Notes under the pieces: generated by a model
Databases searched by the model: none
What the model was told of the DNA's origin: nothing
What the model saw: only the letters and a program-made list of their open reading frames with translations
Translations under genes and position numbers: made by a program
IMG/VR virus record: IMGVR_UViG_3300031976_001148
Span: 1-31,283 of that record
DNA: 31,283 nucleotides
Source of the DNA: a virus
Direction: 5' to 3' (one strand)
In this document: piece by piece, positions 473 to 27,485 of the stretch
How positions within the stretch are numbered: the stretch's first letter is position 1
How the letters are laid out: each line of letters starts with the position of its first letter

Positions 473-720
473 GATCGTGAGCCAAATATTTTTTCGGCTC
501 CCGCAATTCCTAGAGAACCTAATGTTATTAAAACAAATGAATTGTAAATAAACTCATTTATAACTAAATCCTTTCCTAAGTAACCAGTAGCTAAATCAAC
601 TACTGCAAATATTACCATTACTGCAAATGATAAAAATCCTATAACGGACTTTTCATTTATGTCGTTTTTATCTCTGAACAATTCTTTAATCCACATTTCT
701 TTTTCCTTTATGGTTGTCAA
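469..720 (-). CDS. Small two-helix membrane protein, holin candidate
   Basis: An 83-aa protein with a charged amino-terminal part (residues 1-24), then two hydrophobic segments at about 26-46 and 56-76, and a short basic tail. Its start lies inside the 3' end of the 149-aa holin-like gene (35-nt overlap), and its stop overlaps the start of the secreted-protein gene. Small two-helix proteins of this type sit in lysis regions of many marine phages and may be holins or antiholins, but no specific family motif proves it. The lysis role comes from position and topology. Confidence 0.65.
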   Translation of the reverse strand: MTTIKEKEMWIKELFRDKNDINEKSVIGFLSFAVMVIFAVVDLATGYLGKDLVINEFIYNSFVLITLGSLGIAGAEKIFGSRS

Positions 721-1135
721 TTTTATCTAAAATTTCGTTTAATAACTCCATTTTAATAAAACCAGCCATAGAGGCGTTCTTCAATGCAGAAACAATTTGA
801 AAAACCATGAATGGTAAAACTATAGTTCCACTTAACCATGAAACATTAAATGATGCCTGAATGCTTAATATAACAAATAATATAATCCACCATATACACA
901 TTGTCTTAATTACTTTTAACGCTTTATATGTTTTAAAGCCTTCTCTTTTAGTTCCAGCTATAACTCCAAAAAAGCCATCTAATAATACAACAAATCCTAC
1001 TGAAAGGAATTGTTCATTATAAGTCATAGTAATATTAAGTATATGATTGCATACAAAACCACAAGCTGCTGAGGATAGCAATACTACCTTCATAACTAAG
1101 GGTAAATTCAAAATACTTGTTATAAAATCCTTCAT
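686..1135 (-). CDS. Holin-like membrane protein
   Basis: A 149-aa protein with about four hydrophobic segments (roughly 12-30, 42-62, 78-98 and 100-125) and a soluble charged tail ending in DNHKGKRNVD. The pattern, with LLDGFFGVIAGTKREGF after the second helix, resembles the phage_holin_4 family, in which an acidic helix end and a basic cytosolic loop are typical. It would form the inner-membrane lesion that lets lytic enzymes act. It lies next to a second small membrane gene and, beyond the fibre-like gene, an M23 endopeptidase, which fits a lysis cluster. Family assignment is by pattern recall, not a search. Confidence 0.6.
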   Translation of the reverse strand: MKDFITSILNLPLVMKVVLLSSAACGFVCNHILNITMTYNEQFLSVGFVVLLDGFFGVIAGTKREGFKTYKALKVIKTMCIWWIILFVILSIQASFNVSWLSGTIVLPFMVFQIVSALKNASMAGFIKMELLNEILDKIDNHKGKRNVD

Positions 1136-2985: not shown

Positions 2986-3678
2986 TTATTTAACAGTGTA
3001 TCGATTTCTATAGCGAATTAAAGTAATAGAATCAGTGTAAAGAGAGTCACCTTCCATATCCATAATTTCATTTGGATTAAATTGAGCTCCTAAGAATCTA
3101 GTTTCAAAATGTAAGTGAGGTCCTAATGAATTTCCAGTACTACCTATTCTACCAATTGGTGTTCCATTTGTAATAGTATCTCCTTCTTCTACTAATAATT
3201 CTCTAAAATGAGCATAGTAAGTTTCAATACCATTAAAATGTCTGATAATAACTAAGTTTCCATATCCACCATTATAACCATAGCGAGACCATCTTACTAC
3301 TCCATCAAAAGCTGCTGTTGTTGTATCTCTATTATTATAACCAATATCTAGAGCACCATGCCAACCTTGACGTCTATAACCATAACCACTTGTAACTTTA
3401 CCTCCTACAGGAAAAGTAAACTCTCCTGTATCTAAAACTAAAACTAAGCTTACTGAATCTGGATATCCGTTATAAGGTTTAAAATGCATATAACTAAGAT
3501 CTCCTCCTTCATATAGCGTATCAGCTTTTAAAGTATCTGGAGTCGTTGGTAATGGTAAAACTGTATCTTGAATATGTATTGGAACTAACTTTGGTACTGG
3601 ATGTTGCTTAGTATATGTTTTTTGCATAAACATAAAGCTAATCGCTAGTAGTAGCATTGCTAAATAATATTTTTTCAT
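2986..3678 (-). CDS. Exported M23-family peptidoglycan endopeptidase
   Basis: A 230-aa protein with an amino-terminal hydrophobic signal or anchor (residues 4-18), a Pro/Thr-rich linker (27-55) and a complete LytM/M23 domain (about 90-205). The metal-binding residues are visible: H107 and D111 in GWHGALDIG (HxxxD), H157 in YYAHF, and HLHF at 188-191. The family cleaves cross-link peptides of peptidoglycan. The signal suggests delivery to the periplasm by Sec, and its place near holin and transglycosylase genes points to host lysis. It is distinct from the M23 domain in the tail hub gene at the other end of the window. Confidence 0.85.
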   Translation of the reverse strand: MKKYYLAMLLLAISFMFMQKTYTKQHPVPKLVPIHIQDTVLPLPTTPDTLKADTLYEGGDLSYMHFKPYNGYPDSVSLVLVLDTGEFTFPVGGKVTSGYGYRRQGWHGALDIGYNNRDTTTAAFDGVVRWSRYGYNGGYGNLVIIRHFNGIETYYAHFRELLVEEGDTITNGTPIGRIGSTGNSLGPHLHFETRFLGAQFNPNEIMDMEGDSLYTDSITLIRYRNRYTVK

Positions 3679-3702: not shown

Positions 3703-3764
3703 GCTAGATTAAGCCTCGATATGTAATCGTGTAATGATAAATATCGTAAAATGTTTATAAACTG

Positions 3765-3837
3765 TGACTCGGCTGGGGTTCGAACCCAGGACCCATACAT
3801 TAAAAGTGTATTGCTCTACCAGCTGAGCTACCGAGTC
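3765..3837 (-). tRNA. tRNA-Lys(TTT): tRNA-Lys (anticodon TTT)
   Basis: The minus strand folds as a full cloverleaf: acceptor GACTCGG/CCGAGTC, D arm GCTC...GAGC, anticodon stem ATACA/TGTAT with loop CTTTTAA, a 5-nt variable region GGGTC, and T arm CTGGG-TTCGAAC-CCCAG. The discriminator is A at 3765 and CCA is not encoded. The anticodon TTT reads AAA/AAG lysine codons, which are very frequent in these AT-rich genes. Confidence 0.95.
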
Positions 3838-3838
3838 A

Positions 3839-4141
3839 TTAGTAGGTCTCCCATGGATTATTTACTCTAAAAACAAGTTTATCAGCTTGATATCTATAAT
3901 CTACCCAAAATATTTTATAACGAGCTTGGTAAGGATATCTAACTAAAAACCAATGATGTTTTTGTTCATCTGCTTGGAATTGATAATCAGCTACCCAGTA
4001 TTTAATATCCGCTTGATAAGCATAATCTACTTCATACAATAAAATATCCGCTTGATAAGCATAATCAACCTCAAACATTAATTGTGAAAAACTAATACTT
4101 GGTATAAATAATAAAGCTAATAAAATATTTTTAATACTCAT
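3839..4141 (-). CDS. Exported tandem-repeat protein resembling the DUF6150 (7(1) knot) family
   Basis: A 100-aa protein with a signal peptide (residues 1-20, ending SISFSQ). The rest is almost entirely tandem 12-16-residue repeats: LMFEVDYAYQADI (21-33), LLYEVDYAYQADI (34-46), KYWVADYQFQADE (47-59), a longer degenerate unit (60-75), KIFWVDYRYQADK (76-88) and a terminal half-degenerate unit (89-100). The consensus is hydrophobic-x-[YFW]-x-V-[DA]-Y-x-[YF]-Q-A-D. From memory this is the repeat style of DUF6150, the family predicted and later shown to fold as a 7(1) torus knot. Its role is unknown. It lies between two tRNA genes among lysis/export genes and follows a 64-aa membrane protein. Confidence 0.7.
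   Translation of the reverse strand: MSIKNILLALLFIPSISFSQLMFEVDYAYQADILLYEVDYAYQADIKYWVADYQFQADEQKHHWFLVRYPYQARYKIFWVDYRYQADKLVFRVNNPWETY
4004..4066 (-). repeat. Two 24-bp direct repeats, 39-bp period, inside the tandem-repeat gene
   Basis: The same 24 bases, beginning AATATCCGCTTG on the plus strand, occur at 4004-4027 and 4043-4066. The 39-bp offset equals one 13-residue protein repeat. The near identity of these two units, against divergence of the others, suggests a recent duplication of one repeat. Confidence 0.85.
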
Positions 4142-4142
4142 A

Positions 4143-4337
4143 TTAGAAATAATTATATCCTACTATTACAACAGTAAAAATACCTACTATTAACATCAAA
4201 AAGAAACCAGCCATCTTTACTAGAAAGCTAGAATTAATCGGTGTTTGCTCAGCATCAGCTTTAGTTCCTTCTGATATTAAAGTGTAAACTCCAATCGAAA
4301 AAAGAGCTGTAACTAAGGACGCTAAAAACCCTACCAT
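4143..4337 (-). CDS. Small two-helix membrane protein
   Basis: A 64-aa protein with hydrophobic segments at about 3-20 and 42-62, separated by a polar loop (EGTKADAEQTPINSS). Its ATG shares one base with the stop of the preceding 56-aa membrane gene (TAATG), so the two are probably co-translated. The following repeat-protein gene starts 2 nt after its stop. I do not recognise a family; a lysis-related role is possible only from context. Confidence 0.55.
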   Translation of the reverse strand: MVGFLASLVTALFSIGVYTLISEGTKADAEQTPINSSFLVKMAGFFLMLIVGIFTVVIVGYNYF

Positions 4338-4507: not shown

Positions 4508-4533
4508 AACATAAAATTAAAATTAAAAAATAG

Positions 4534-4607
4534 TACTCCGGCTAGGATTCGAACCTAGGACCTACTGCTTAGAAGGCAGTTGCTCTATCCAGCTGAGCTA
4601 CCGGAGC
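4534..4607 (-). tRNA. tRNA-Arg(TCT): tRNA-Arg (anticodon TCT)
   Basis: Full cloverleaf on the minus strand: acceptor GCTCCGG/CCGGAGT (first pair G-U), D arm GCTC...GAGC, anticodon stem ACTGC/GCAGT with loop CTTCTAA, and T arm CTAGG-TTCGAAT-CCTAG. The discriminator is A and CCA is not encoded. The anticodon TCT reads AGA/AGG, and AGA is a favoured arginine codon in an AT-rich genome. Confidence 0.95.
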
Positions 4608-4616
4608 ATGAGTTAA

Positions 4617-4967
4617 TTATCTTTTTCCTCCGAAGTATTTAACTGCGTGACCTTCCGTAATTAACATTTCATTCAAGCTCCAGCCATCTTTTTGTAGGAA
4701 TAATTCTCCTAAACATCTACCAAATTTACCTACTCCGTGAGAAACTAAAATAAATTTATTATCATTTGATTCTAATTGTTCAATAAGATATTGTTTAGCT
4801 GCTAAACCTTTTTCTTTTTCTTCTAAATCTCTTGTACGAGATTCCCAAGCATCGATACCGTTAAGTCTAATACGAACTTTTTTCCAAGTATCAAATCCTA
4901 GATCTACTAGAGCATCGACAGTATCTCCATCTACTACTCTTTCTACTATTGCGTTGTAAGTATACAT
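4617..4967 (-). CDS. Thermonuclease (SNase-like) without signal peptide
   Basis: A 116-aa protein covering a compact staphylococcal-nuclease fold. Visible landmarks are VVDGDTVDA (11-19), VRIRLNGIDAWESR (31-44) and GKFGRCLGELF (80-90). These supply the calcium aspartates (D15, D39) and the equivalents of the catalytic Arg-Glu-Arg triad (R34, E42, R84). It has no export signal, unlike its neighbours, so it probably acts in the cytoplasm on DNA or RNA. Small cytosolic SNase proteins are known in other phages; degrading host nucleic acid to feed nucleotide supply is a plausible role. It overlaps the start of the next gene by one base. Confidence 0.85.
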   Translation of the reverse strand: MYTYNAIVERVVDGDTVDALVDLGFDTWKKVRIRLNGIDAWESRTRDLEEKEKGLAAKQYLIEQLESNDNKFILVSHGVGKFGRCLGELFLQKDGWSLNEMLITEGHAVKYFGGKR

Positions 4968-5394: not shown

Positions 5395-5826
5395 TTAGTG
5401 GTAATAAGCTAATAAATCAAGTTCTTTTCTTACTTTGTTCCAGTAACACTTAGTTCGATGATGACTACTACCAGATGGACCTCCATTCCAACAACGAGCT
5501 ATTGTCTCCCAATCTGAATCAGAATGATAATATTCTCTCCAGATATGGAACATTTCAATAGATTTTTTTACACTAAGACGATCGGTATAAACATAACGAA
5601 CATCACTTCCATTTTTTTCCTGGATACGATTAACTTCTCTAACCATAATAGGCCATATCTGCAATACTCCTATTGCCCATCCACGATCACCTGTAGCAGT
5701 AGAGTCTCCTCTTGATTCAACTTGAATAATTGCTTCTACTAAGCAGTCAATAGGCATATCTTGATACTGTGCTTGAGACACACTTAGAGATAGCGAGAGT
5801 GTAAATAATAGTAATAGTTTTTTCAT
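5395..5826 (-). CDS. Exported lytic transglycosylase-like murein hydrolase
   Basis: A 143-aa protein with a signal peptide (residues 1-20, ending SVSQAQ) and a lysozyme-like transglycosylase fold. The candidate catalytic glutamate is E37 in IIQVESRG. It is followed by GWAIGVLQIWP (49-59), the usual GxxQI signature, and IARCWNGGPSG (109-119), matching the A-x-x-YNGG motif of SLT-type enzymes. It would cleave the glycan strands of peptidoglycan and thereby complement the M23 endopeptidase. A 10-bp dyad lies directly upstream of the start. The fold is confident; the exact subclass is not. Confidence 0.8.
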   Translation of the reverse strand: MKKLLLLFTLSLSLSVSQAQYQDMPIDCLVEAIIQVESRGDSTATGDRGWAIGVLQIWPIMVREVNRIQEKNGSDVRYVYTDRLSVKKSIEMFHIWREYYHSDSDWETIARCWNGGPSGSSHHRTKCYWNKVRKELDLLAYYH

Positions 5827-8692: not shown

Positions 8693-10414
8693 TTAATTAG
8701 TAAAAACTTCTTTATCTATATTACCAGAAAGTAAATCGTGACAGGTATGATTAATGTGTAAAGCTGATTCTTGAATGATACGTTGACCAGATAAAGTAAT
8801 AGCTTCTCCTATAAGTATATTACCATACCTAAAACCATTCATAGCTGTAGCTCCAAATAAAGAATTAAGTAAGATCTTAATTGTATACTGCATTGTATGA
8901 TACTTTGCAGTCATAGCTTTGTTACCTTCAGACTTATACTTCTTCATTAAGTTCTTATATCGTACTCTCTCATTAAACCATTCATTTAATAATATAGAGA
9001 ATACTGATGGTTTATCTTTAGAGAACATTACCCCATTAGCAGCTACTGCGATATCCATATCTTCGATAAACTTAACCAGTTTAGATACTTCCATCATCTT
9101 AGTTTGACCTCTATGATTTTGAACTCTAACATTTAACTCTTGAGGCATCTCTTTTAGATCTTTTAACCCTAATCGGTTATTCTTCTCATCACCATGATAG
9201 ATCTTTCCTATCATAGTTTCCTTACCCATATTGAGAGTCATCATAATAGATGGATATAGAGAGGTTAAATCTAAGTCAAAAATATAATTGTATAGTCCGG
9301 AAGTAGGACAGAATACATAACCACCAGCAATCTTACGATCTAATTTATTATTACGTTCCTTACGAGGTGGAATAATACCTTTAGATAAAAGATAAGCTGA
9401 AATAGCACCATCATGTACTACTGAGGTAGAATGAACCTGATGATAGTTAATCTTACCTTTATGACATAAGTTTTTAGTTAAATCAAGATAACCTAACTTC
9501 TCATCTAATACTTTTAAGATCTCAACATCTCGAAAGTTATATTCGATAAACTTATCAATATCATCTTCGAATAATCGATTAAGAGATCCTTCATACTCAA
9601 TCTTACCTAACCCAGCATACTTCTCTCCAATAGCATCTAACTTATAAGAAGGTTCTTCTCTCATAGAGAACTGCTTATGTAGTCGTAAGTAATCTAAAGT
9701 TTCTAAACCGGCAAACTCAATAGTACGTTCTCTAGACCATTGAGATATATCTCTTGCAATATTAATAGGAGACATAGCCATAGCCCATTCCTCTCCTAAT
9801 ACATTACAGATACGAAAATATAAATAAGGAATATCGAAATGATCACTATTATATCCGATTAAGATATCTGGATCGATTTCTCTAATACGTTCAACCCATT
9901 TAGCAAGTAACTCTTTTTCTGTACGAACAGGTATAATCTCTTTATTACCCTTTTCAGAGTATTGCATTTTACCTTGCTTATCTAAAATCAAGATACCCCA
10001 CTTATCTCTAAACTTATCATACCAAGCAATAGAAGTACAAGGCATTGGAGCTTGACGGATGTACTCTTGAGTTAATCGTCCACCAATCTCAATCTCAATA
10101 TCGAAAAATAATTCTTTATGTGAAGTCGAAGGCTCATCATTAGTACCGTAGGTTTCGATCAGAAACTTTTGAGCCGGTTGCATATCATGATAATGAATAG
10201 TCTTATCATCATAATCCCATTGATACACTTTATCTAACTTCTCACCTCGGAAACCTTCATACTCACCATAATCAGATTCTTTGTAAGCATAATTACGCCA
10301 ATCTAATTGATTATATCCACCATCATCCCATAAGTGAATAGTATAGTTATTCCCTCTACCTTTTTCTGCATAACACTTTTTGTAAGGTAGTACTAATTGC
10401 TCCTTACTGCTCAT
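8693..10414 (-). CDS. 43: Family B DNA polymerase, amino-terminal part ending before motif C
   Basis: A 573-aa relative of T4 gp43 (898 aa in T4). The 3'-5' exonuclease is complete: Exo I FDIEIEI (104-110), Exo II YNSDHFDIP (188-196) and Exo III YNFRDVEI (292-299). Polymerase motif A is DLDLTSLYPSI (380-390) and motif B is KILLNSLFG (513-521). The protein stops at residue 573, 52 residues after motif B. Motif C (YxDTDS), which carries the second catalytic aspartate, and the whole thumb are therefore missing. No other reading frame in this window contains DTDS, and the next gene begins only 35 nt later. The polymerase is either split, with its carboxy part elsewhere in the genome, or inactive for synthesis. 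Overlap with the MazG-like gene is 11 nt. Confidence 0.9.
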   Translation of the reverse strand: MSSKEQLVLPYKKCYAEKGRGNNYTIHLWDDGGYNQLDWRNYAYKESDYGEYEGFRGEKLDKVYQWDYDDKTIHYHDMQPAQKFLIETYGTNDEPSTSHKELFFDIEIEIGGRLTQEYIRQAPMPCTSIAWYDKFRDKWGILILDKQGKMQYSEKGNKEIIPVRTEKELLAKWVERIREIDPDILIGYNSDHFDIPYLYFRICNVLGEEWAMAMSPINIARDISQWSRERTIEFAGLETLDYLRLHKQFSMREEPSYKLDAIGEKYAGLGKIEYEGSLNRLFEDDIDKFIEYNFRDVEILKVLDEKLGYLDLTKNLCHKGKINYHQVHSTSVVHDGAISAYLLSKGIIPPRKERNNKLDRKIAGGYVFCPTSGLYNYIFDLDLTSLYPSIMMTLNMGKETMIGKIYHGDEKNNRLGLKDLKEMPQELNVRVQNHRGQTKMMEVSKLVKFIEDMDIAVAANGVMFSKDKPSVFSILLNEWFNERVRYKNLMKKYKSEGNKAMTAKYHTMQYTIKILLNSLFGATAMNGFRYGNILIGEAITLSGQRIIQESALHINHTCHDLLSGNIDKEVFTN

Positions 10415-10977: not shown

Positions 10978-12003
10978 TTACGAAATATGAATTAAACTGG
11001 ACCATACCTCATGTGATATATCTTGACTAAACTTGCTGTTTGGTGCTGTTATAACCGATATTGCATCGTGAGAGTGTAGAGACTCTTGATGAGAGCATAT
11101 TACTCTAAAATCTTTTACTCTTTTATCTTCGGATAATTGTTCGTATAATAATCGAGCGGCATCTTCTACAAATTTGAGATAAGAACCATTAAGTTCAGCA
11201 AAGGCCATTTCGTCTTCTCTCTTTACAACTACTTGAGTTTCGGTCTTAAGAGCTTTAGCACACATCTCTTGTAGATCTTCTATCCATACAATTTTATCAA
11301 ACTCTATTGATATTCTAGCTACCGATCTTTGAGAATGAGATACTGTTGCTTTATTTCTATACTTTCTTGCATGCTCGGCTAATTCATACGAACAAGGACA
11401 AGCAGAAGAATAAACAAAATCAAAATGTAAGATCTTTTTAAAATTACCTGTATAATCAATATTACCTTCTAAAGTTACATTATAATATTGATAACCAGCA
11501 TTATTTGATCTTAAAGAAGGTTGTAAAATAGGATAAGAAAAATGTAATCCAATCTTAGCATCAAATGAATCTAGATTATCTTTATACTTCATTAGAATAT
11601 CATCTAACTTATCATATACGTAATCATCTTTAAACTTATAGAAAGATCTCATAATACGAGACATATTAATTCCTTTCTTATGAGCTGCTAAGGATACTGT
11701 TCCGGTTACTCGAGTTTCTAATTCAATATCCCCTCCTCCACGCTTTTCATACTTAAGAGGTAATCTAAAATTATGAATACCTACTTGTTGGATCTCTACA
11801 GGACTTCCTTGAATCAAAGATGAAGGTCCATTTTGAAGATCAGGAAATGTCTCGATATCAGCTTTTGTAGGTCTATAAGTAGCATCATATTCTCTATCCG
11901 GTTCATTATATTTTACCGAATATTCATTATCTTCCGGTTCCTTATAAGATTTAACATCTCCGATCCACTCATATTTTTTTTCCTTATTTCTGTTATCTTG
12001 CAT
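10978..12003 (-). CDS. folE2: GTP cyclohydrolase FolE2 (type IB)
   Basis: A 341-aa member of the COG1469/FolE2 family, which converts GTP to 7,8-dihydroneopterin triphosphate, the first step toward folate and 7-deazaguanines. Landmarks are GIHNFRLPL (75-83), HKKGINMSR (108-116), SSACPCS (199-205, with the conserved metal-site Cys) and HSQRS (223-227). Residues 1-55 are a charged leader longer than the core requires. It ends the 7-deazaguanine operon, 16 nt after queE. FolE2 differs from FolE1 in tolerating metals other than zinc, which matters because other enzymes of this operon also show altered zinc sites. Confidence 0.92.
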   Translation of the reverse strand: MQDNRNKEKKYEWIGDVKSYKEPEDNEYSVKYNEPDREYDATYRPTKADIETFPDLQNGPSSLIQGSPVEIQQVGIHNFRLPLKYEKRGGGDIELETRVTGTVSLAAHKKGINMSRIMRSFYKFKDDYVYDKLDDILMKYKDNLDSFDAKIGLHFSYPILQPSLRSNNAGYQYYNVTLEGNIDYTGNFKKILHFDFVYSSACPCSYELAEHARKYRNKATVSHSQRSVARISIEFDKIVWIEDLQEMCAKALKTETQVVVKREDEMAFAELNGSYLKFVEDAARLLYEQLSEDKRVKDFRVICSHQESLHSHDAISVITAPNSKFSQDISHEVWSSLIHIS

Positions 12004-12019
12004 AATTTTATTTTAAATA

Positions 12020-12796
12020 TTAAACACATCTTTCTGTACCAAAAGCCATAATATGACTTCTACCTGTAAATCTCCATCCTCTATCTCTAACAAAGTTCAT
12101 TACTACAGGATAGGATTCTTGTAGAGCAGGAATATCATCTCCAGCAGGCATACACCAAATCTTTTCATCTGGTATCTCTAACTCTTTAACAAACTCCTCT
12201 ACTTCCGGAAGAATAGTTAAATCTTTATCTAATACTGGTTTAATATGATAATCATTATGATATTCAATAGAAGCTTTGATTGCTTCTTTATTCAATCGTT
12301 TACTGTTATGTTTGATGATCATCTTCTCATCTACTATCTCTCCTAGCGGTGTTTTAGCTCCTACTACTGGAATAGAATTACTAAATTTAGGTGAAATAGA
12401 TAATAGATTAATAGGATAATCAGTTTCTAAAAAATGAGATCCTTCTGTTTCAATAGTAATAAAGATTCCTCGCTCATGAGCAAAATGAGTTAATTCATTT
12501 ACTAAAGCAGGGTGCATAGTAGGAGATCCCCCAGTTAACATCATCTCTTTTATATGAGGATTATCATCATACATTTTGATAATGTCATTAAAACAGAAAG
12601 TACCTTTTTCCGGATGAATAGATGTATACCAACTATCACACCATCCACCTTCACCAAAGAAGCATCTATGAGTACATCCTGATGTTCTAACTACAATAGT
12701 AGGGTAACCTTGTCTTGAACCTTCAGATTGAACTGCAGTATAAAGCTCTAATACCTGTAAAGGTTTTTCGTAACTTCTTAATCTTTTACATTTCAT
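12020..12796 (-). CDS. queE: 7-carboxy-7-deazaguanine synthase QueE (radical SAM)
   Basis: A 258-aa radical SAM protein converting 6-carboxytetrahydropterin to 7-carboxy-7-deazaguanine. The QueE start signature VQSEGSRQGYPTIVVRTSGC (22-41) is followed by cluster cysteines C41, C45 and C53, a CX3CX7C spacing instead of the usual CX3CX2C. It continues with LTGGSPTMHP (87-96) and FITIETEGS (112-120), the SAM- and substrate-side motifs. It shares one base with the queF stop. The five extra residues between the second and third cysteines (FFGEGGW) are the odd feature; the rest fits the family well, so I expect an active enzyme. Confidence 0.9.
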   Translation of the reverse strand: MKCKRLRSYEKPLQVLELYTAVQSEGSRQGYPTIVVRTSGCTHRCFFGEGGWCDSWYTSIHPEKGTFCFNDIIKMYDDNPHIKEMMLTGGSPTMHPALVNELTHFAHERGIFITIETEGSHFLETDYPINLLSISPKFSNSIPVVGAKTPLGEIVDEKMIIKHNSKRLNKEAIKASIEYHNDYHIKPVLDKDLTILPEVEEFVKELEIPDEKIWCMPAGDDIPALQESYPVVMNFVRDRGWRFTGRSHIMAFGTERCV

Positions 12797-13713
12797 TATT
12801 GACGTAATGTTTTTTGAGTTAAGCTATTCATAGTTCTAAATGCACCAGGAATTAAATGCTCATGAGTAGATCGAATAGGATTAATATCAATCCCTCCTCT
12901 TCGAGTATACATTGCACATACCATTAGTTCTTTAGGATTAAATTCATCGTATAATTTTTTAAAGATCATTTCTACGATCTCTTCATGAAAGTGATTAACT
13001 TGTCTATGAGAAACAATATAGCTTGCTAGACTATCTAGAGTAAATACACTATCCTTCTCATTACCTTTAATAAAAATAAATAAGTCACCCCAGTCTGGTT
13101 GATTAGTTACTCGACAATTACTTCTTAAAAGATTAGTACGAACTTTTAATCTAGGATTAAAATCTTTAAACGATGCTTTGGTAATATCTAATTTTTCTAA
13201 TTTATCATTAGAATAATCTACTTTATCTAAATCTACTAAATCTTCTAGTTCATCATAATCACTAAAGACATCAAAATTAAGACTATCATTTCTTGTAAAT
13301 AATTTACATTCAACTTCTGTTTCTAATAAAGTTGATAAATCTTCTGATACGGTATCCTCAATAATCTTAATACATTCTTCTCCTGTTTCCCCAAAAGGAG
13401 TCATATTAAAGGAATTAAGATATAGTTTAATTGACTTAGATTCAACGTGATATTTAGAATCTGCATCACACCATATCTTCATTACTCCTGATACTGGTCT
13501 TCCAGTATTAGTAATAGCTGATACTTCGTATGCGTTCCAGACATCTCCTCCTATAAACGGAAGATTTTTATTATCAATTCGATAAGTTTCTCGATTTAAA
13601 GATCTAGGAATACGAACTAATAAAGAAGAATCATAAGTTGTTGAATAACCTTCTCCTCCTCTTTTACCTAATAGCGTTCCCGCTATATCATTAATTTGAC
13701 TTTGTGTGCTCAT
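12796..13713 (-). CDS. queF: PreQ0 reductase QueF (long, bimodular type)
   Basis: A 305-aa NADPH-dependent nitrile reductase that turns preQ0 into preQ1. The length and two tandem tunnelling-fold halves match the E. coli-type QueF. Motifs are ESKSIKLYLNSFN (91-103), LLRSNCRVTNQPDWGD (195-210) with nucleophile C200 and general-acid D207, and HFHEEIVE (241-248), a substrate-binding Glu. An acidic insert at about 142-176 is longer than usual. Its presence, rather than only queC, predicts that the base placed in DNA is preQ1-derived. It overlaps the kinase gene by 23 nt and queE by 1 nt. Confidence 0.93.
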   Translation of the reverse strand: MSTQSQINDIAGTLLGKRGGEGYSTTYDSSLLVRIPRSLNRETYRIDNKNLPFIGGDVWNAYEVSAITNTGRPVSGVMKIWCDADSKYHVESKSIKLYLNSFNMTPFGETGEECIKIIEDTVSEDLSTLLETEVECKLFTRNDSLNFDVFSDYDELEDLVDLDKVDYSNDKLEKLDITKASFKDFNPRLKVRTNLLRSNCRVTNQPDWGDLFIFIKGNEKDSVFTLDSLASYIVSHRQVNHFHEEIVEMIFKKLYDEFNPKELMVCAMYTRRGGIDINPIRSTHEHLIPGAFRTMNSLTQKTLRQ

Positions 13714-14245
13714 TAATTGCTTTTTTAATTTGTTTAACTCTTTGTTTTACCGTACCTGTTAATTCCACAACTTCTACACCAAAATTATTTATGTAGGTTT
13801 CAAATAAATCTGCTATATCATCTCTAAAGTCTATATCATCACTTCTCACACCATCACTAACCAGATCAAATTCAGGCTTTAAATAAAATATAATGTCATA
13901 TTGATTAATATAACTTTTAAATACATTTTCACAATAATCATAAACCCAGTTAGGAATACCAGGATTATAATCACATAACCATCGAGTATAGACTAATGCA
14001 TCTAAAATACATCTATCCATTACTACTTTTGGTTTACGTAAATTTACAATATGATCTGTAATAATTAGTATCTGAGTAGTCAGATCTCCTTTCTCATTAA
14101 TATCAAGATTAAATTGTCTTTGTATTCTTCTTGTTACTTCTTTTACAAAAGTATATTCTTCTATTTCTTTAACATTATTATCTGCAAGATAATTAACTAA
14201 AGTAGATTTACCCGTTCCCTGAGCTCCTGTAAATGCTATTTTCAT
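13691..14245 (-). CDS. P-loop kinase/ATPase, AAA_28-like
   Basis: A 184-aa protein with Walker A GAQGTGKST (7-15), and VVMDRCILDALVY (73-85), which contains an aspartate-arginine pair in the position of the kinase Walker B or LID start. The closest family I can recall is AAA_28, related to nicotinamide-riboside kinase of NadR and to small phage kinases. It is embedded between dpdN and queF with a 1-nt overlap at its start and 23 nt at its end, so it belongs to the 7-deazaguanine operon. It could phosphorylate a nucleoside or a pathway intermediate; the substrate cannot be read from the sequence. Confidence 0.7.
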   Translation of the reverse strand: MKIAFTGAQGTGKSTLVNYLADNNVKEIEEYTFVKEVTRRIQRQFNLDINEKGDLTTQILIITDHIVNLRKPKVVMDRCILDALVYTRWLCDYNPGIPNWVYDYCENVFKSYINQYDIIFYLKPEFDLVSDGVRSDDIDFRDDIADLFETYINNFGVEVVELTGTVKQRVKQIKKAINEHTKSN

Positions 14246-14796
14246 TAGTATAACCTTTTATTCAAAAATTGTATCCATAAGCCTATCGACTCGTTTCTTA
14301 ATATACGAAAATAATCATCAAGTTCCAAATTTCTAGTAGGAATTTTATTTTTATAAGCTATAATTTCTCCTTCATCTACCTGTTCAATTACCTTATGCAA
14401 TACTGTTCCTATAAATTTATAATTTTTTTTCCAAGCTTTTAACTGTGGATCCTTTCCTTTTAATTTTGGATATTTAATTATATCTCCTGGGTGACCATTA
14501 TAAATTTCATAACTCCTACATATTTCCGGCGGCAATACTCTTAACCAGCCGTGGAGAGTAACAATAGGATTAAAAACAAATCGTTCAAATATTCCATAAT
14601 ATTCTTCTAGTGTTGGTTTGTTAGATACATAACAAATTTTATTTCTGCATCTATCTAATAAATCTTGATTAATACTTCTTAAATGTTCAGGTCTTTTATT
14701 AGTTATAATAATATCAGGTTCTCTATCTAGAGCATTAATTACTTCTATAAGCTCGCTTCCAGTTTGCGAGAACATTGCGATCCATCTTTTATGCAT
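14245..14796 (-). CDS. dpdN: Formyltransferase-fold enzyme, candidate DpdN (preQ1-DNA formyltransferase)
   Basis: A 183-aa protein matching the catalytic half of the GART/Formyl_trans_N fold. The triad of the family is present: N100 and H102 in IYNGHPGDI, and D141 in QVDEGEIIAY, with KYPKLKGKDPQLKAW (108-122) and FIGTVLHKVIE (128-138) between them, as in PurN. The amino-terminal part is shorter and differs from PurN, so this is not purine synthesis. It lies directly downstream of the dpdA-like gene (8-nt overlap) in a preQ1-making operon. The published DpdN class formylates preQ1 in phage DNA to 7-(formylamino)methyl-7-deazaguanine, using a formyl-folate donor. The enzyme class is seen in the sequence; the DNA substrate is inferred from context. 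Confidence 0.75.
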   Translation of the reverse strand: MHKRWIAMFSQTGSELIEVINALDREPDIIITNKRPEHLRSINQDLLDRCRNKICYVSNKPTLEEYYGIFERFVFNPIVTLHGWLRVLPPEICRSYEIYNGHPGDIIKYPKLKGKDPQLKAWKKNYKFIGTVLHKVIEQVDEGEIIAYKNKIPTRNLELDDYFRILRNESIGLWIQFLNKRLY

Positions 14797-15619
14797 TCCA
14801 TAAATTTTTAAATGCTTTAGTATTATATTCTATTAAATCCCATATTTGAGAATTTAATTTATAATTTATCATAGTAAATAATTTTTGTGATTCTTTATCT
14901 TTTAATCCATATTTTGTATATTGTACATTTTTTATACCATGCACTATAGGATTAGATGTATCTACAGAATCTATAAAAAAGTATCGTTCAGGATCTTCTT
15001 TATAGAATGCTCCTTCTTGTGGTAAACCGCAGCCTAATAGATGAACTGGGATACTATAGTCAATAACTTTGTCCTCGATCATTTGATCTATTAAGCATGC
15101 TCTACCAATTGTAAATCTTTCATATTTATTTGATCCTAAACTTTCGTAAGTATTTAAATAATATGAATAATCAAATGAAATAGCTACTTTATCTACCTTA
15201 GCTTCCTCCACCATAAATTTATAACATTTAACTATTTCTTCATATGTTTTACCTTGAACTACACCAATAGATTTACTTTTAATATCAGGATATTTTGATA
15301 GCCATCTTTTTGCTTTATCAATCGTTTTATCGCAATCTTCTAATACATCTGGAATAATATACCATGTTGGTTCTAGTTCAGTTACCCAATGATAATATTT
15401 TTTATTATTAAATGATTTACCTAATTCAAAAATACTATTATCTAAAATAATTTCTCTGCCTTGTTTTTTAGCTTTAAAAAATATTTCTTTATATTCCGGA
15501 ATTTCATCCATTAAATGAACTAAACAATAATCGTAATCTGTTAGCTGTTGTACCTTATCAAATATTGACATAGGTGCTTCATGAGCTATTCTAATTTTAT
15601 TCTCCATAATATATTGCAC
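14789..15619 (-). CDS. dpdA: DpdA-like DNA 7-deazaguanine transglycosylase
   Basis: A 276-aa TIM-barrel protein of the TGT/DpdA superfamily, which exchanges guanine in polynucleotide for a 7-deazaguanine base. Landmarks are EIILDNSIFELG (56-67), YIIPDVLEDCDKT (87-99), IGVVQGKTYEE (118-128), VAISFD (145-150), VHLLGCGLPQEG (192-203) and FIDSVDTSNPIVHGI (215-229). D91 and D217 or D220 are candidate catalytic acids. The CxCxxC zinc motif of tRNA TGT is absent, and the protein is shorter than a tRNA TGT, consistent with a phage DNA enzyme. Start choice: the ATG at 15619 overlaps queD by 23 nt; an in-frame ATG four codons later (15607) is equally possible. Confidence 0.82.
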   Translation of the reverse strand: MQYIMENKIRIAHEAPMSIFDKVQQLTDYDYCLVHLMDEIPEYKEIFFKAKKQGREIILDNSIFELGKSFNNKKYYHWVTELEPTWYIIPDVLEDCDKTIDKAKRWLSKYPDIKSKSIGVVQGKTYEEIVKCYKFMVEEAKVDKVAISFDYSYYLNTYESLGSNKYERFTIGRACLIDQMIEDKVIDYSIPVHLLGCGLPQEGAFYKEDPERYFFIDSVDTSNPIVHGIKNVQYTKYGLKDKESQKLFTMINYKLNSQIWDLIEYNTKAFKNLWNA

Positions 15620-16067
15620 TATTTTTTTCGTGTTCTCTAACTTCTACTGATACTATTTTACATCGATTATTAGTATCTTCTTTTACCCAATCATTTAATT
15701 TATTATAAAAATACTCAGCAAATTTTTCTGCTCCTACAGCAGGAATAACTCTTACTCGAGCTGCTCCTACTTTATCCATTTGTTTAAAAGCTTCTAAAAA
15801 TGGGTCATCCTCTGCTACTATTACAGTATGATCTAACATATATGATAACCATTCTTTTACTTTCATACCGTCGATTTCTATATTGGATCTTTTAGCTCTG
15901 CCAAAATCTACTACCCAATTTTTATCATCGAGTTCACCTTCGTATGTTATTTTAAGAGATACTGAGTATCCATGTAAATATTGACAGTGTGTATCTGTTG
16001 CTTTCCATTGTCGAAAACAAGTAGAATACCCATCATATATTTTACTTGATAAAAATTTTTTTGACAT
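15597..16067 (-). CDS. queD: 6-carboxytetrahydropterin synthase QueD (phage-type)
   Basis: A 156-aa PTPS-fold protein making 6-carboxytetrahydropterin from dihydroneopterin triphosphate. Recognisable parts are THCQYLHGYS (26-35), NWVVDFGRAK (50-59), LDHTVIV (78-84) and the terminal VEVREHEKNSAIY. Compared by eye with E. coli QueD, the AAH histidine is replaced (STCF here) and LHGHS reads LHGYS, so two of the three usual zinc histidines are changed. I recall similar variants in other marine phages, so this looks like a family feature rather than decay. It overlaps both a 47-codon ORF and dpdA. Confidence 0.85.
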   Translation of the reverse strand: MSKKFLSSKIYDGYSTCFRQWKATDTHCQYLHGYSVSLKITYEGELDDKNWVVDFGRAKRSNIEIDGMKVKEWLSYMLDHTVIVAEDDPFLEAFKQMDKVGAARVRVIPAVGAEKFAEYFYNKLNDWVKEDTNNRCKIVSVEVREHEKNSAIYYGE

Positions 16068-16185
16068 AATTTATTATTTTTTTATACATAAAAATAAATG
16101 GAGTAATCCCTATCATAAGTAAAGATAGTAAGGAAGGATGTGATTCCCCGCATAATCCTAGCATATGATATATAAATTCTTTCAT
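16042..16185 (-). CDS. Possible 47-aa membrane microprotein
   Basis: An ATG at 16185, 6 nt after the queC stop, opens a 47-codon frame that runs 26 nt into queD. It begins MKEFIYHMLGLCGESHPSLL and has one hydrophobic helix (about 17-33) followed by a basic tail. It fills a gap of more than 120 nt that would be unusual in this packed operon. The LGLCGESHPSL segment looks like a conserved motif I associate with small phage proteins, but I cannot confirm it. Confidence 0.45.
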   Translation of the reverse strand: MKEFIYHMLGLCGESHPSLLSLLMIGITPFIFMYKKIINYVKKIFIK

Positions 16186-16190
16186 TAATA

Positions 16191-17003
16191 TTATGTATTA
16201 TAATTTAATAATACTTCTTGTACGTGAGCTTTAGCTTTCTGCCAATGTACTACTCCTGTTTCGTCAGCATATCTTACAGGATCTTTTTTTCCTAACTTAA
16301 TAAATGCTTCGATACGTTCTACAGAAGAAGCTGATTTATAATCAGAATACCATTCTTTATCTATTTGAATAGGTTTATATGAAGTATTCGTTCGAGAATA
16401 TACTTCATTAAAATCTAATCCTAATTCAAAACAAGCAACTTCTCCTGCTTGTAAAATACCATACTTATCATCATTAATAAACGGAGTATAATATTCGATA
16501 TTATCAGCATCCCAGTTTCCTAATTTAAAAGTAGCTAGATCTGCATCTCTAAATTCTTCTCTACAGTCGGGATAAATTGCGTGATCACCTGCATGAATAC
16601 CCATTCCAATATAAGTTGGTAGATTATTTGCTTTATACATTGAGAGAGCAATAGCTTGAGTTATAGAAGAAAAGATTTTATTACGATTAGGTACTACCGT
16701 AGCTTTCATATTTTCTTCTGCATAATGTCCTTCCGGTACTTCTTCTCCTCCTGATACTAGAGCTGAGTTAAGTAGATCTGGAAGACCATCTAATTTAATT
16801 ACTTGATACTTGATGTTTGGTTCATTCAATCTGGTTAGATTAATATAATCAATTAAAGACTGAGCTCTTTCAAGTTCTACACGATGCTTTTGACCGTAAT
16901 CAAAAGATACTGCAGTTACATTAAATCCTTCTTTTAAAGCATGGATTAATAAAGTAGAGGAGTCCATCCCTCCAGAAAGACTAATTACAACATTTTTACT
17001 CAT
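16191..17003 (-). CDS. queC: 7-cyano-7-deazaguanine synthase QueC lacking zinc cysteines
   Basis: A 270-aa PP-loop ATPase converting 7-carboxy-7-deazaguanine to preQ0 with ATP and ammonia. The PP-loop SGGMDSS (10-16), SFDYGQKHRVE (33-43), VVPNRNKIFSS (103-113), IYPDCREEF (143-151) and VERIEAF (228-234) are all as in QueC. However, residues 206-230, where QueC normally carries four zinc-binding cysteines (a CxxC-rich loop before VER), read NTSYKP...YSDYKSASSVER with no cysteine. The only cysteines in the protein are C147 and C191. It begins the operon and overlaps the preceding small gene by 8 nt. Confidence 0.9.
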   Translation of the reverse strand: MSKNVVISLSGGMDSSTLLIHALKEGFNVTAVSFDYGQKHRVELERAQSLIDYINLTRLNEPNIKYQVIKLDGLPDLLNSALVSGGEEVPEGHYAEENMKATVVPNRNKIFSSITQAIALSMYKANNLPTYIGMGIHAGDHAIYPDCREEFRDADLATFKLGNWDADNIEYYTPFINDDKYGILQAGEVACFELGLDFNEVYSRTNTSYKPIQIDKEWYSDYKSASSVERIEAFIKLGKKDPVRYADETGVVHWQKAKAHVQEVLLNYNT

Positions 17004-26228: not shown

Positions 26229-27485
26229 TTAACATTTTACAAGATTACCATAATTTTTACCATTTTTACATTTTATTTTAAGATTAAAAATACGAAAAAC
26301 TTCTTTAATTTTCTCTACTATTTTCTCTTCTTTTTTATCTACATCTAATAATATACTATCATAGGTATATAAAACAACCTTAGTTTGTTTACCTCGCAAT
26401 AGTTTCAAGATATCATATAAGATAAGAACATTATTTGAAGTTTCCAAATTTTGCAATAAATAATTCATTAATTTTAATGAATTCATTTGCGGATGATCTT
26501 TCTTTGAAAATTTATAATTAGATATTGGGCATTCTATATAACCTTTTGAATTAAATTCAGACCATAGATTATTTGAATAGTTTTTTACTTTCTGAAAGAA
26601 AGGTATATGTTCGTATTCAGATTTTATTCCTCCATATATTTGTTGAAAAGTTAATTGTTTTGCTTTATCATACGATGTTTGATATACAGATGCAAAATAT
26701 TCATGTATATCTTCTACCTCAAATTCATATTTAAGTAACTGACACAGTAGAAGTATATGATAAGATGAAACATCTATTTCTACAAAATAATCATTTCTTG
26801 GTATAAAACAACTCCTACTGCCATTATCTTTATTTAGAGCTGCATAATTTACTTTCTTAAATGTATTAGATGGTCGAGTAGTTATAGTAGTATAGTTATA
26901 CTGAGTAAAAACAAAATCTTCTTCGTTTTCATAAAAATGTTTTTCAAATAACTGTTTATTTATTTTTATACCACTTGACTCAATAACTGAGAATACTAGA
27001 GGTACTTTATTATTATAAAATGAATTATAATCATTATCAATATGCTCACTAATCTCCTCATACTTAGCTTCGTAGTACTCATATATCTTTACTATAGAGC
27101 AGTTTGAGTTAGATATTTTTCTCCTTTGAAAATCTTGTATAATTAATGGATAATCTATTTGTAATTCTTTGTAATTTATTTGTATATCAAATAGATTTCT
27201 ATGTTTAAAGTTATGTAATAGTTTCTTTTTATCATAACAGTAAAACTTAGATATTCCTTTAAGAAAATCAATAATATTTTTTTGTAATAAATTACCAGTT
27301 TCGTAATGATTTATAGGTAAAATATATCCTTTTTTATCAGTAATAGGTCTAATATAATATCCAACAATATTTTGTTGACAGGGATGCTCATTAAAAAAGT
27401 CAGGTATTATTTCAATATAGAGATTATCTTTTACTATATTTTTAAAAGTATTAAACTGTTTTTTATTCTCTATTAACCAGTACAT
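26229..27485 (-). CDS. Divergent family A (Pol I-like) DNA polymerase
   Basis: A 418-aa protein with a recognisable Pol I order. VPLVFSVIESSGIKIN (161-176) is the helix before the palm, TTRPSNTFKKVNYAALN (202-218) corresponds to TGRLSSxxPNLQN, motif A is VEIDVSSYHILLL (235-247, D238), then DIHEYFA (259-265), motif B is KAKQLTFQQIYGG (274-286), NYLLQNLETSN corresponds to NxxIQGxAAD, and motif C is LYTYDSILLDV (372-382, D376, with YDS instead of HDE). Both catalytic aspartates remain. The first 120 residues align loosely with a 3'-5' exonuclease fold (GYYIRP...GYILPINH), but the DxE pair is lost. It is far shorter than E. coli Pol I. It could be a repair, primer-gap or main replicative polymerase. 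Confidence 0.75.
   Translation of the reverse strand: MYWLIENKKQFNTFKNIVKDNLYIEIIPDFFNEHPCQQNIVGYYIRPITDKKGYILPINHYETGNLLQKNIIDFLKGISKFYCYDKKKLLHNFKHRNLFDIQINYKELQIDYPLIIQDFQRRKISNSNCSIVKIYEYYEAKYEEISEHIDNDYNSFYNNKVPLVFSVIESSGIKINKQLFEKHFYENEEDFVFTQYNYTTITTRPSNTFKKVNYAALNKDNGSRSCFIPRNDYFVEIDVSSYHILLLCQLLKYEFEVEDIHEYFASVYQTSYDKAKQLTFQQIYGGIKSEYEHIPFFQKVKNYSNNLWSEFNSKGYIECPISNYKFSKKDHPQMNSLKLMNYLLQNLETSNNVLILYDILKLLRGKQTKVVLYTYDSILLDVDKKEEKIVEKIKEVFRIFNLKIKCKNGKNYGNLVKC

Follow-up and report, generated by a model that had tools for sequence, protein, structure and literature searches.

A phage-borne DUF6150 repeat protein with a predicted signal peptide and a predicted fold like that of the 7(1)-knotted protein Q9PR55

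The stretch of viral DNA analysed here (the window, 31,283 nucleotides, IMG/VR record IMGVR_UViG_3300031976_001148) carries between positions 3839 and 4141 a gene encoding 100 amino acids plus a stop, which is read from the minus strand and translates as MSIKNILLALLFIPSISFSQ followed by LMFEVDYAYQADILLYEVDYAYQADIKYWVADYQFQADEQKHHWFLVRYPYQARYKIFWVDYRYQADKLVFRVNNPWETY. These coordinates agree with those of the first-pass annotation, but the coding strand is minus, and the plus strand of the same interval contains several stop codons. The genes around it lie on the same strand. Directly upstream, after a gap of 1 bp, is the gene for a 64-residue membrane protein (4143..4337), and directly downstream is tRNA-Lys (3764..3837). 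Further upstream are tRNA-Arg (4533..4607), a gene for an SNase-like nuclease (4617..4967; PF00565 and phrog_452) and one for an SLT-type murein hydrolase with a signal peptide (5395..5826; PF01464), and on the downstream side are the genes for an M23 peptidase with an N-terminal anchor (2986..3678; PF01551) and a holin-like protein (686..1135; phrog_199, with PF05105 just under its cut-off). Replication-type genes for a family B DNA polymerase, a DnaB-like helicase, a UvsX-like recombinase, a gp32-like protein and ribonucleotide reductase are present elsewhere in the window, and a 72-kb record with an identical copy of the gene at 3839..4141 also has a large terminase. The phage location and the lysis-type neighbours claimed earlier are thus borne out.

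The product belongs to the DUF6150 family, as the first-pass annotation had proposed: PF19647 matches it with 44.4 bits against a gathering cut-off of 27 (E 1.7e-11), a cut-off that is passed by seven other phage records as well. Tandem Repeats Finder gave a repeat period of 39 bp, or 13 residues, and the mature chain consists of six units of 13 residues with the core Y-x-x-Q-A-D; the consensus V-D-Y-x-[YF]-Q-A-D suggested in the first-pass annotation holds in this protein. By this period and the alignment, unit 1 (FEVDYAYQADILL) is positioned at 4037..4075, followed on the minus strand by unit 2 (YEVDYAYQADIKY, 3998..4036), unit 3 (WVADYQFQADEQK, 3959..3997), a conserved HHW linker (3950-3958), unit 4 (FLVRYPYQARYKI, 3911..3949), unit 5 (FWVDYRYQADKLV, 3872..3910) and unit 6 with the C-terminus FRVNNPWETY (3842..3871). 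A degenerate pattern of two units was matched at one place in the window and was absent from all 100 dinucleotide shuffles. Unit 1 is identical to unit 2 over 24 bases (4043-4066 and 4004-4027) at sites where orthologues differ, and this identity is what stands of the earlier claim of a recently duplicated repeat. The gain of a unit does not, because all 111 of the aligned homologues have all six units; as judged from the alignment, the identity is better read as local homogenisation or chance retention.

In Bacteroidota members of DUF6150, as in the window protein, the profile match, the six Y-x-x-[QE]-A-[DG] units, the signal peptide, the insert with its tryptophan after unit 3 and the invariant tyrosines are all found, and alignments of 76 and 111 sequences show no gap at any of the six units. 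The window copy differs from these members in that it is phage-encoded and lacks the C-terminal GW...KKHLLY tail. Its PF19647 match stops at profile position 85 of 98, so that the GW...K tail (the last 13 positions), which is common in the family and not required for membership, is missing; window-type copies have no residue after unit 6, as compared with 11-12 in most bacterial members. A few bacterial members also have a short C-terminus, which does not exclude them from the family. The residue preceding QA is aromatic (Y/F/W/H) in the window protein and commonly S or N in the Bacteroidota proteins. Among the 111 aligned sequences this residue varies from protein to protein (S, N, Y, H) and is nearly constant across the six units of any one protein, with a between-unit identity of 93% versus 37% after column shuffling; this uniformity could reflect either a side-chain ladder or concerted evolution.

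A pattern scan with one genome per species detected at least 118 DUF6150 stretches, nearly all in Bacteroidota, with some, among the matches listed, in Ignavibacteriota, Coatesbacteria, Fermentibacteria, Aminicenantes and Acidobacteria. The distribution is patchy, because only 21 of 392 Bacteroidota genomes in an even draw pass the PF19647 cut-off. At L041 and L062 the DUF6150 gene occurs as a tandem array of two or three copies. Neither DUF6150 nor PF19647 was found by name in the literature searched.

The first 19 residues (MSIKNILLALLFIPSISFS, 4085..4141) are predicted, by a sequence heuristic, to form a signal peptide with a positive n-region, a hydrophobic core and an FSQ end, cleaved before Gln20. 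A hydrophobic leader, usually ending in AQ or SQ, was seen in 110 of 111 homologues, a figure that leans towards leaders in that the homologues were picked for having a start codon ahead of the repeats. Export therefore appears to be the rule in DUF6150, and the novelty that the first-pass annotation attached to a secreted version falls away because leaders are family-wide. The one leaderless variant seen (L105:5276-5935) has a different architecture, in which DUF6150-like repeats give way to a low-complexity stretch, then to a membrane segment and finally to a C-terminal portion of SH3-like appearance.

The mature domain (Gln20 to Tyr100; 3842..4084) was modelled with AlphaFold2 from an input alignment of 76 sequences. 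The predicted structure (pLDDT 96.6, pTM 0.80) has six strands with a short helical turn after each. When the model was compared with 350,542 PDB chains by Foldseek, the four best matches were all Q9PR55 of Ureaplasma urealyticum, a solved 7(1) knot (8IWA, 8IWB and 8JRM), with a probability of up to 0.98, and every other match had a probability of 0.03 or less. VIA-align placed the whole model on Q9PR55, with residues 25-83 fully aligned (59 residues, 2.1 A, Z 6.6). A separate model of a bacterial DUF6150 member gave a Foldseek probability of 1.00 to the same protein and superimposed at 2.0 A over 59 residues (Z 6.2). The Foldseek E-values (0.11 and 0.015), TM-scores (0.54-0.56) and Z-scores (below 8) are modest. 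The tie to the 7(1)-knot fold that the first-pass annotation proposed is now supported by a structural match of two predicted models, and both the window protein and the bacterial member are predicted to have the fold of Q9PR55 over its knotted core. The window chain is only 15-18% identical to Q9PR55, with no sequence-level match: Q9PR55 was absent, up to an E-value of 10, from the phmmer and hmmsearch lists obtained when the PDB was searched with DUF6150, and a made-up repeat bait did not retrieve it from PDB sequences. These searches gave no link between DUF6150 and Q9PR55 that would point to common descent. The six-unit domain has about 22 residues more than Q9PR55 over the same core, and the fit of a 59-residue core within a chain of 81 residues suggests that the two have equal numbers of units and that the turns are longer in DUF6150.

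The knot core of Q9PR55 spans residues 27-83 (Brems et al., PMC9278004), and its 7(1) knot has been confirmed by a crystal structure, according to a later review (PMC13352647). From the likeness of the models we infer a putative knot of the 7(1) type in the window protein, with the caveat that AlphaFold is able to let one chain run through another (PMC10672856). The last crossing in the phage chain may be shallow or missing, because the chain stops at the edge of the knot core.

Distinct copies of DUF6150 were identified in seven IMG/VR records (L001, L002, L003, L018, L012/L017, L013 and L015), of which the L001 copy is identical to that of the window. No member of the family came up among 50,697 named phages, in a profile search of PHROGs or in a fold search of BFVD. 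With the proteins of the window, L013 and L090 as queries, tblastn returned nothing from named phages or plasmids, a result to be read with BLAST low-complexity filtering in mind, and two further repeat patterns yielded no new viral records. A looser pattern retrieved 24 stretches from viral contigs, none of which was DUF6150 by a home-made profile.

The position of the gene is conserved in the window, L002, L003 and L018/L185, in the order SLT, a 139-residue secreted protein, SNase, tRNA-Arg, DUF6150 and M23 peptidase; L002 lacks the 139-residue gene from the otherwise conserved flank, and the genes immediately beside DUF6150 vary among the four records. The gene is under selective constraint, the dN/dS of the mature part being 0.12-0.28 for the window versus L002 and L003, and appears to have evolved under purifying selection in this syntenic lineage. 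In L012, L013 and L015, DUF6150 lies among other, unrelated neighbours, outside lysis regions. In the tree, the window, L002, L003, L018 and L015 form one clade. It is likely that phages acquired the gene at least twice, because the copy of the 266-kb record (L013) lies apart from that clade, among bacterial sequences, in a tree that is limited by long branches. With the same long branches, the tree does not tie the phage copies to any one bacterial lineage. In G015, the record of L018, the DnaB-like helicase frame at 49252-52820 has internal TAA codons, attributable to a frameshift, a split gene or an assembly error.

With moderate confidence, we interpret the gene as a host-derived DUF6150 gene carried by a phage, the product of which is an exported domain of Q9PR55 type that serves as an accessory envelope protein. 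The gene would most likely have been acquired long ago from a Bacteroidota host. Its product would be made with a Sec signal peptide, would cross the inner membrane unfolded and would then adopt a compact six-unit fold of the Q9PR55 (7(1)-knot) type. The periplasm of the host or its cell surface is the probable site of action of this moron-type accessory envelope protein, and a very stable protein of this kind would tolerate proteases and the lysing cell. The benefit that we think most likely is envelope modulation, for example superinfection exclusion or the restraint of murein hydrolases. T4 Sp and Imm, which are superinfection-exclusion proteins, are small phage proteins that act in the host envelope; the analogy to the window protein is one of role only. 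A bolder version, which we consider unlikely, has a viral 7(1)-knotted protein that passes the Sec channel unfolded, ties itself outside the cytoplasm with neither the ribosome nor ATP-driven chaperones at hand, and serves in the envelope as an all but indestructible effector directed at the host or rival phages.

The tie to lysis is not general, because other phages keep DUF6150 among unrelated genes. That the protein is a dedicated lysis protein of the window phage, spanin-like or a regulator, is quite improbable even though its own strand carries SLT, M23 and holin-like genes close by; no member has a lipobox, the window protein has no transmembrane segment past the leader, its mature chain is modelled as a globular strand-turn domain and not as a spanin or holin type, the L012, L013 and L015 copies lie as described above, and most members are bacterial. 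Another function to be weighed is that the protein partners or inhibits a secreted nuclease and so would shield the DNA of the phage, either in the periplasm or once the cell has lysed. Seven marine Flavobacteriales loci (L047, L060, L072, L115, L116, L128 and L135) have a gene for Endonuclease I (PF04231) that adjoins DUF6150 at 8-95 bp on the same strand and is found nowhere else in these loci, at least one copy having a type IX secretion tail; moreover, SNase is near DUF6150 in the four syntenic phages, and a secreted Endonuclease_NS is encoded about 8 kb from it in the 266-kb phage record. However, the SNase of the phages lacks a signal peptide and most bacterial DUF6150 loci have no such neighbour; apart from the Endonuclease I subset, no gene neighbour is widespread across them. 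We regard the nuclease role as a serious though improbable alternative.

Two other explanations concern the fold. The protein could be a simple repeat protein with no knot, for instance a beta-solenoid, that matches Q9PR55 only through short strand-turn units, and the short units and the modest Foldseek and Z values would be compatible with it. No solenoid was among the PDB matches, however, and Q9PR55 alone was prominent in two separate searches with its whole core aligned, which makes this explanation very improbable. Alternatively, the fold and the export could be as proposed and the truncated phage chain, because it is without the C-terminal tail, could form a less complex torus knot (5(1) or 3(1)) or be able to slip open. 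P73136 of Synechocystis, a relative of Q9PR55, is predicted to have a 5(1) knot, one terminal winding away from the 7(1) of Q9PR55 (PMC9278004), and so shows that a terminus can change the knot type. The complete loss of residues after unit 6 is in line with such a change, but the window model still covers all of Q9PR55 25-83, and we consider a simpler or slipping knot a doubtful alternative to the 7(1) type.

The DUF6150 family and its fold are of already known kinds; what is new within the collections searched is that phages carry members, that the phage lineage has a trimmed C-terminus and that a family with this fold is, judged by its leaders, almost wholly secreted. This secretion bears on how such knots form, given that a chain exported unfolded by Sec must knot in the periplasm without the ribosome or cytosolic chaperonins, and a large exported family of Q9PR55-type fold is a natural test of deep-knot formation. 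The nearly interchangeable six units and the C-terminally trimmed phage copies are ready variants for probing knot depth. If the knot is confirmed, the window protein would be, within the collections searched, the first case of a virus encoding the most complex knot known in proteins.

Other genes of the window also drew attention. The family B DNA polymerase frame (8693-10414, 573 residues) ends inside the polymerase domain, its match reaching 568 of 856 in phrog_262, and is perhaps split or interrupted. The region 10978-17003 encodes two GTP cyclohydrolase-type proteins, a radical SAM protein (QueE-like), a QueD-type protein, QueC and, with its match to phrog_19058, a possibly DpdA-like protein, and looks like a cluster for 7-deazaguanine DNA modification. 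Finally, a 418-residue protein encoded at 26229-27485 has motifs resembling the palm of family A DNA polymerases (YDSILLDV).
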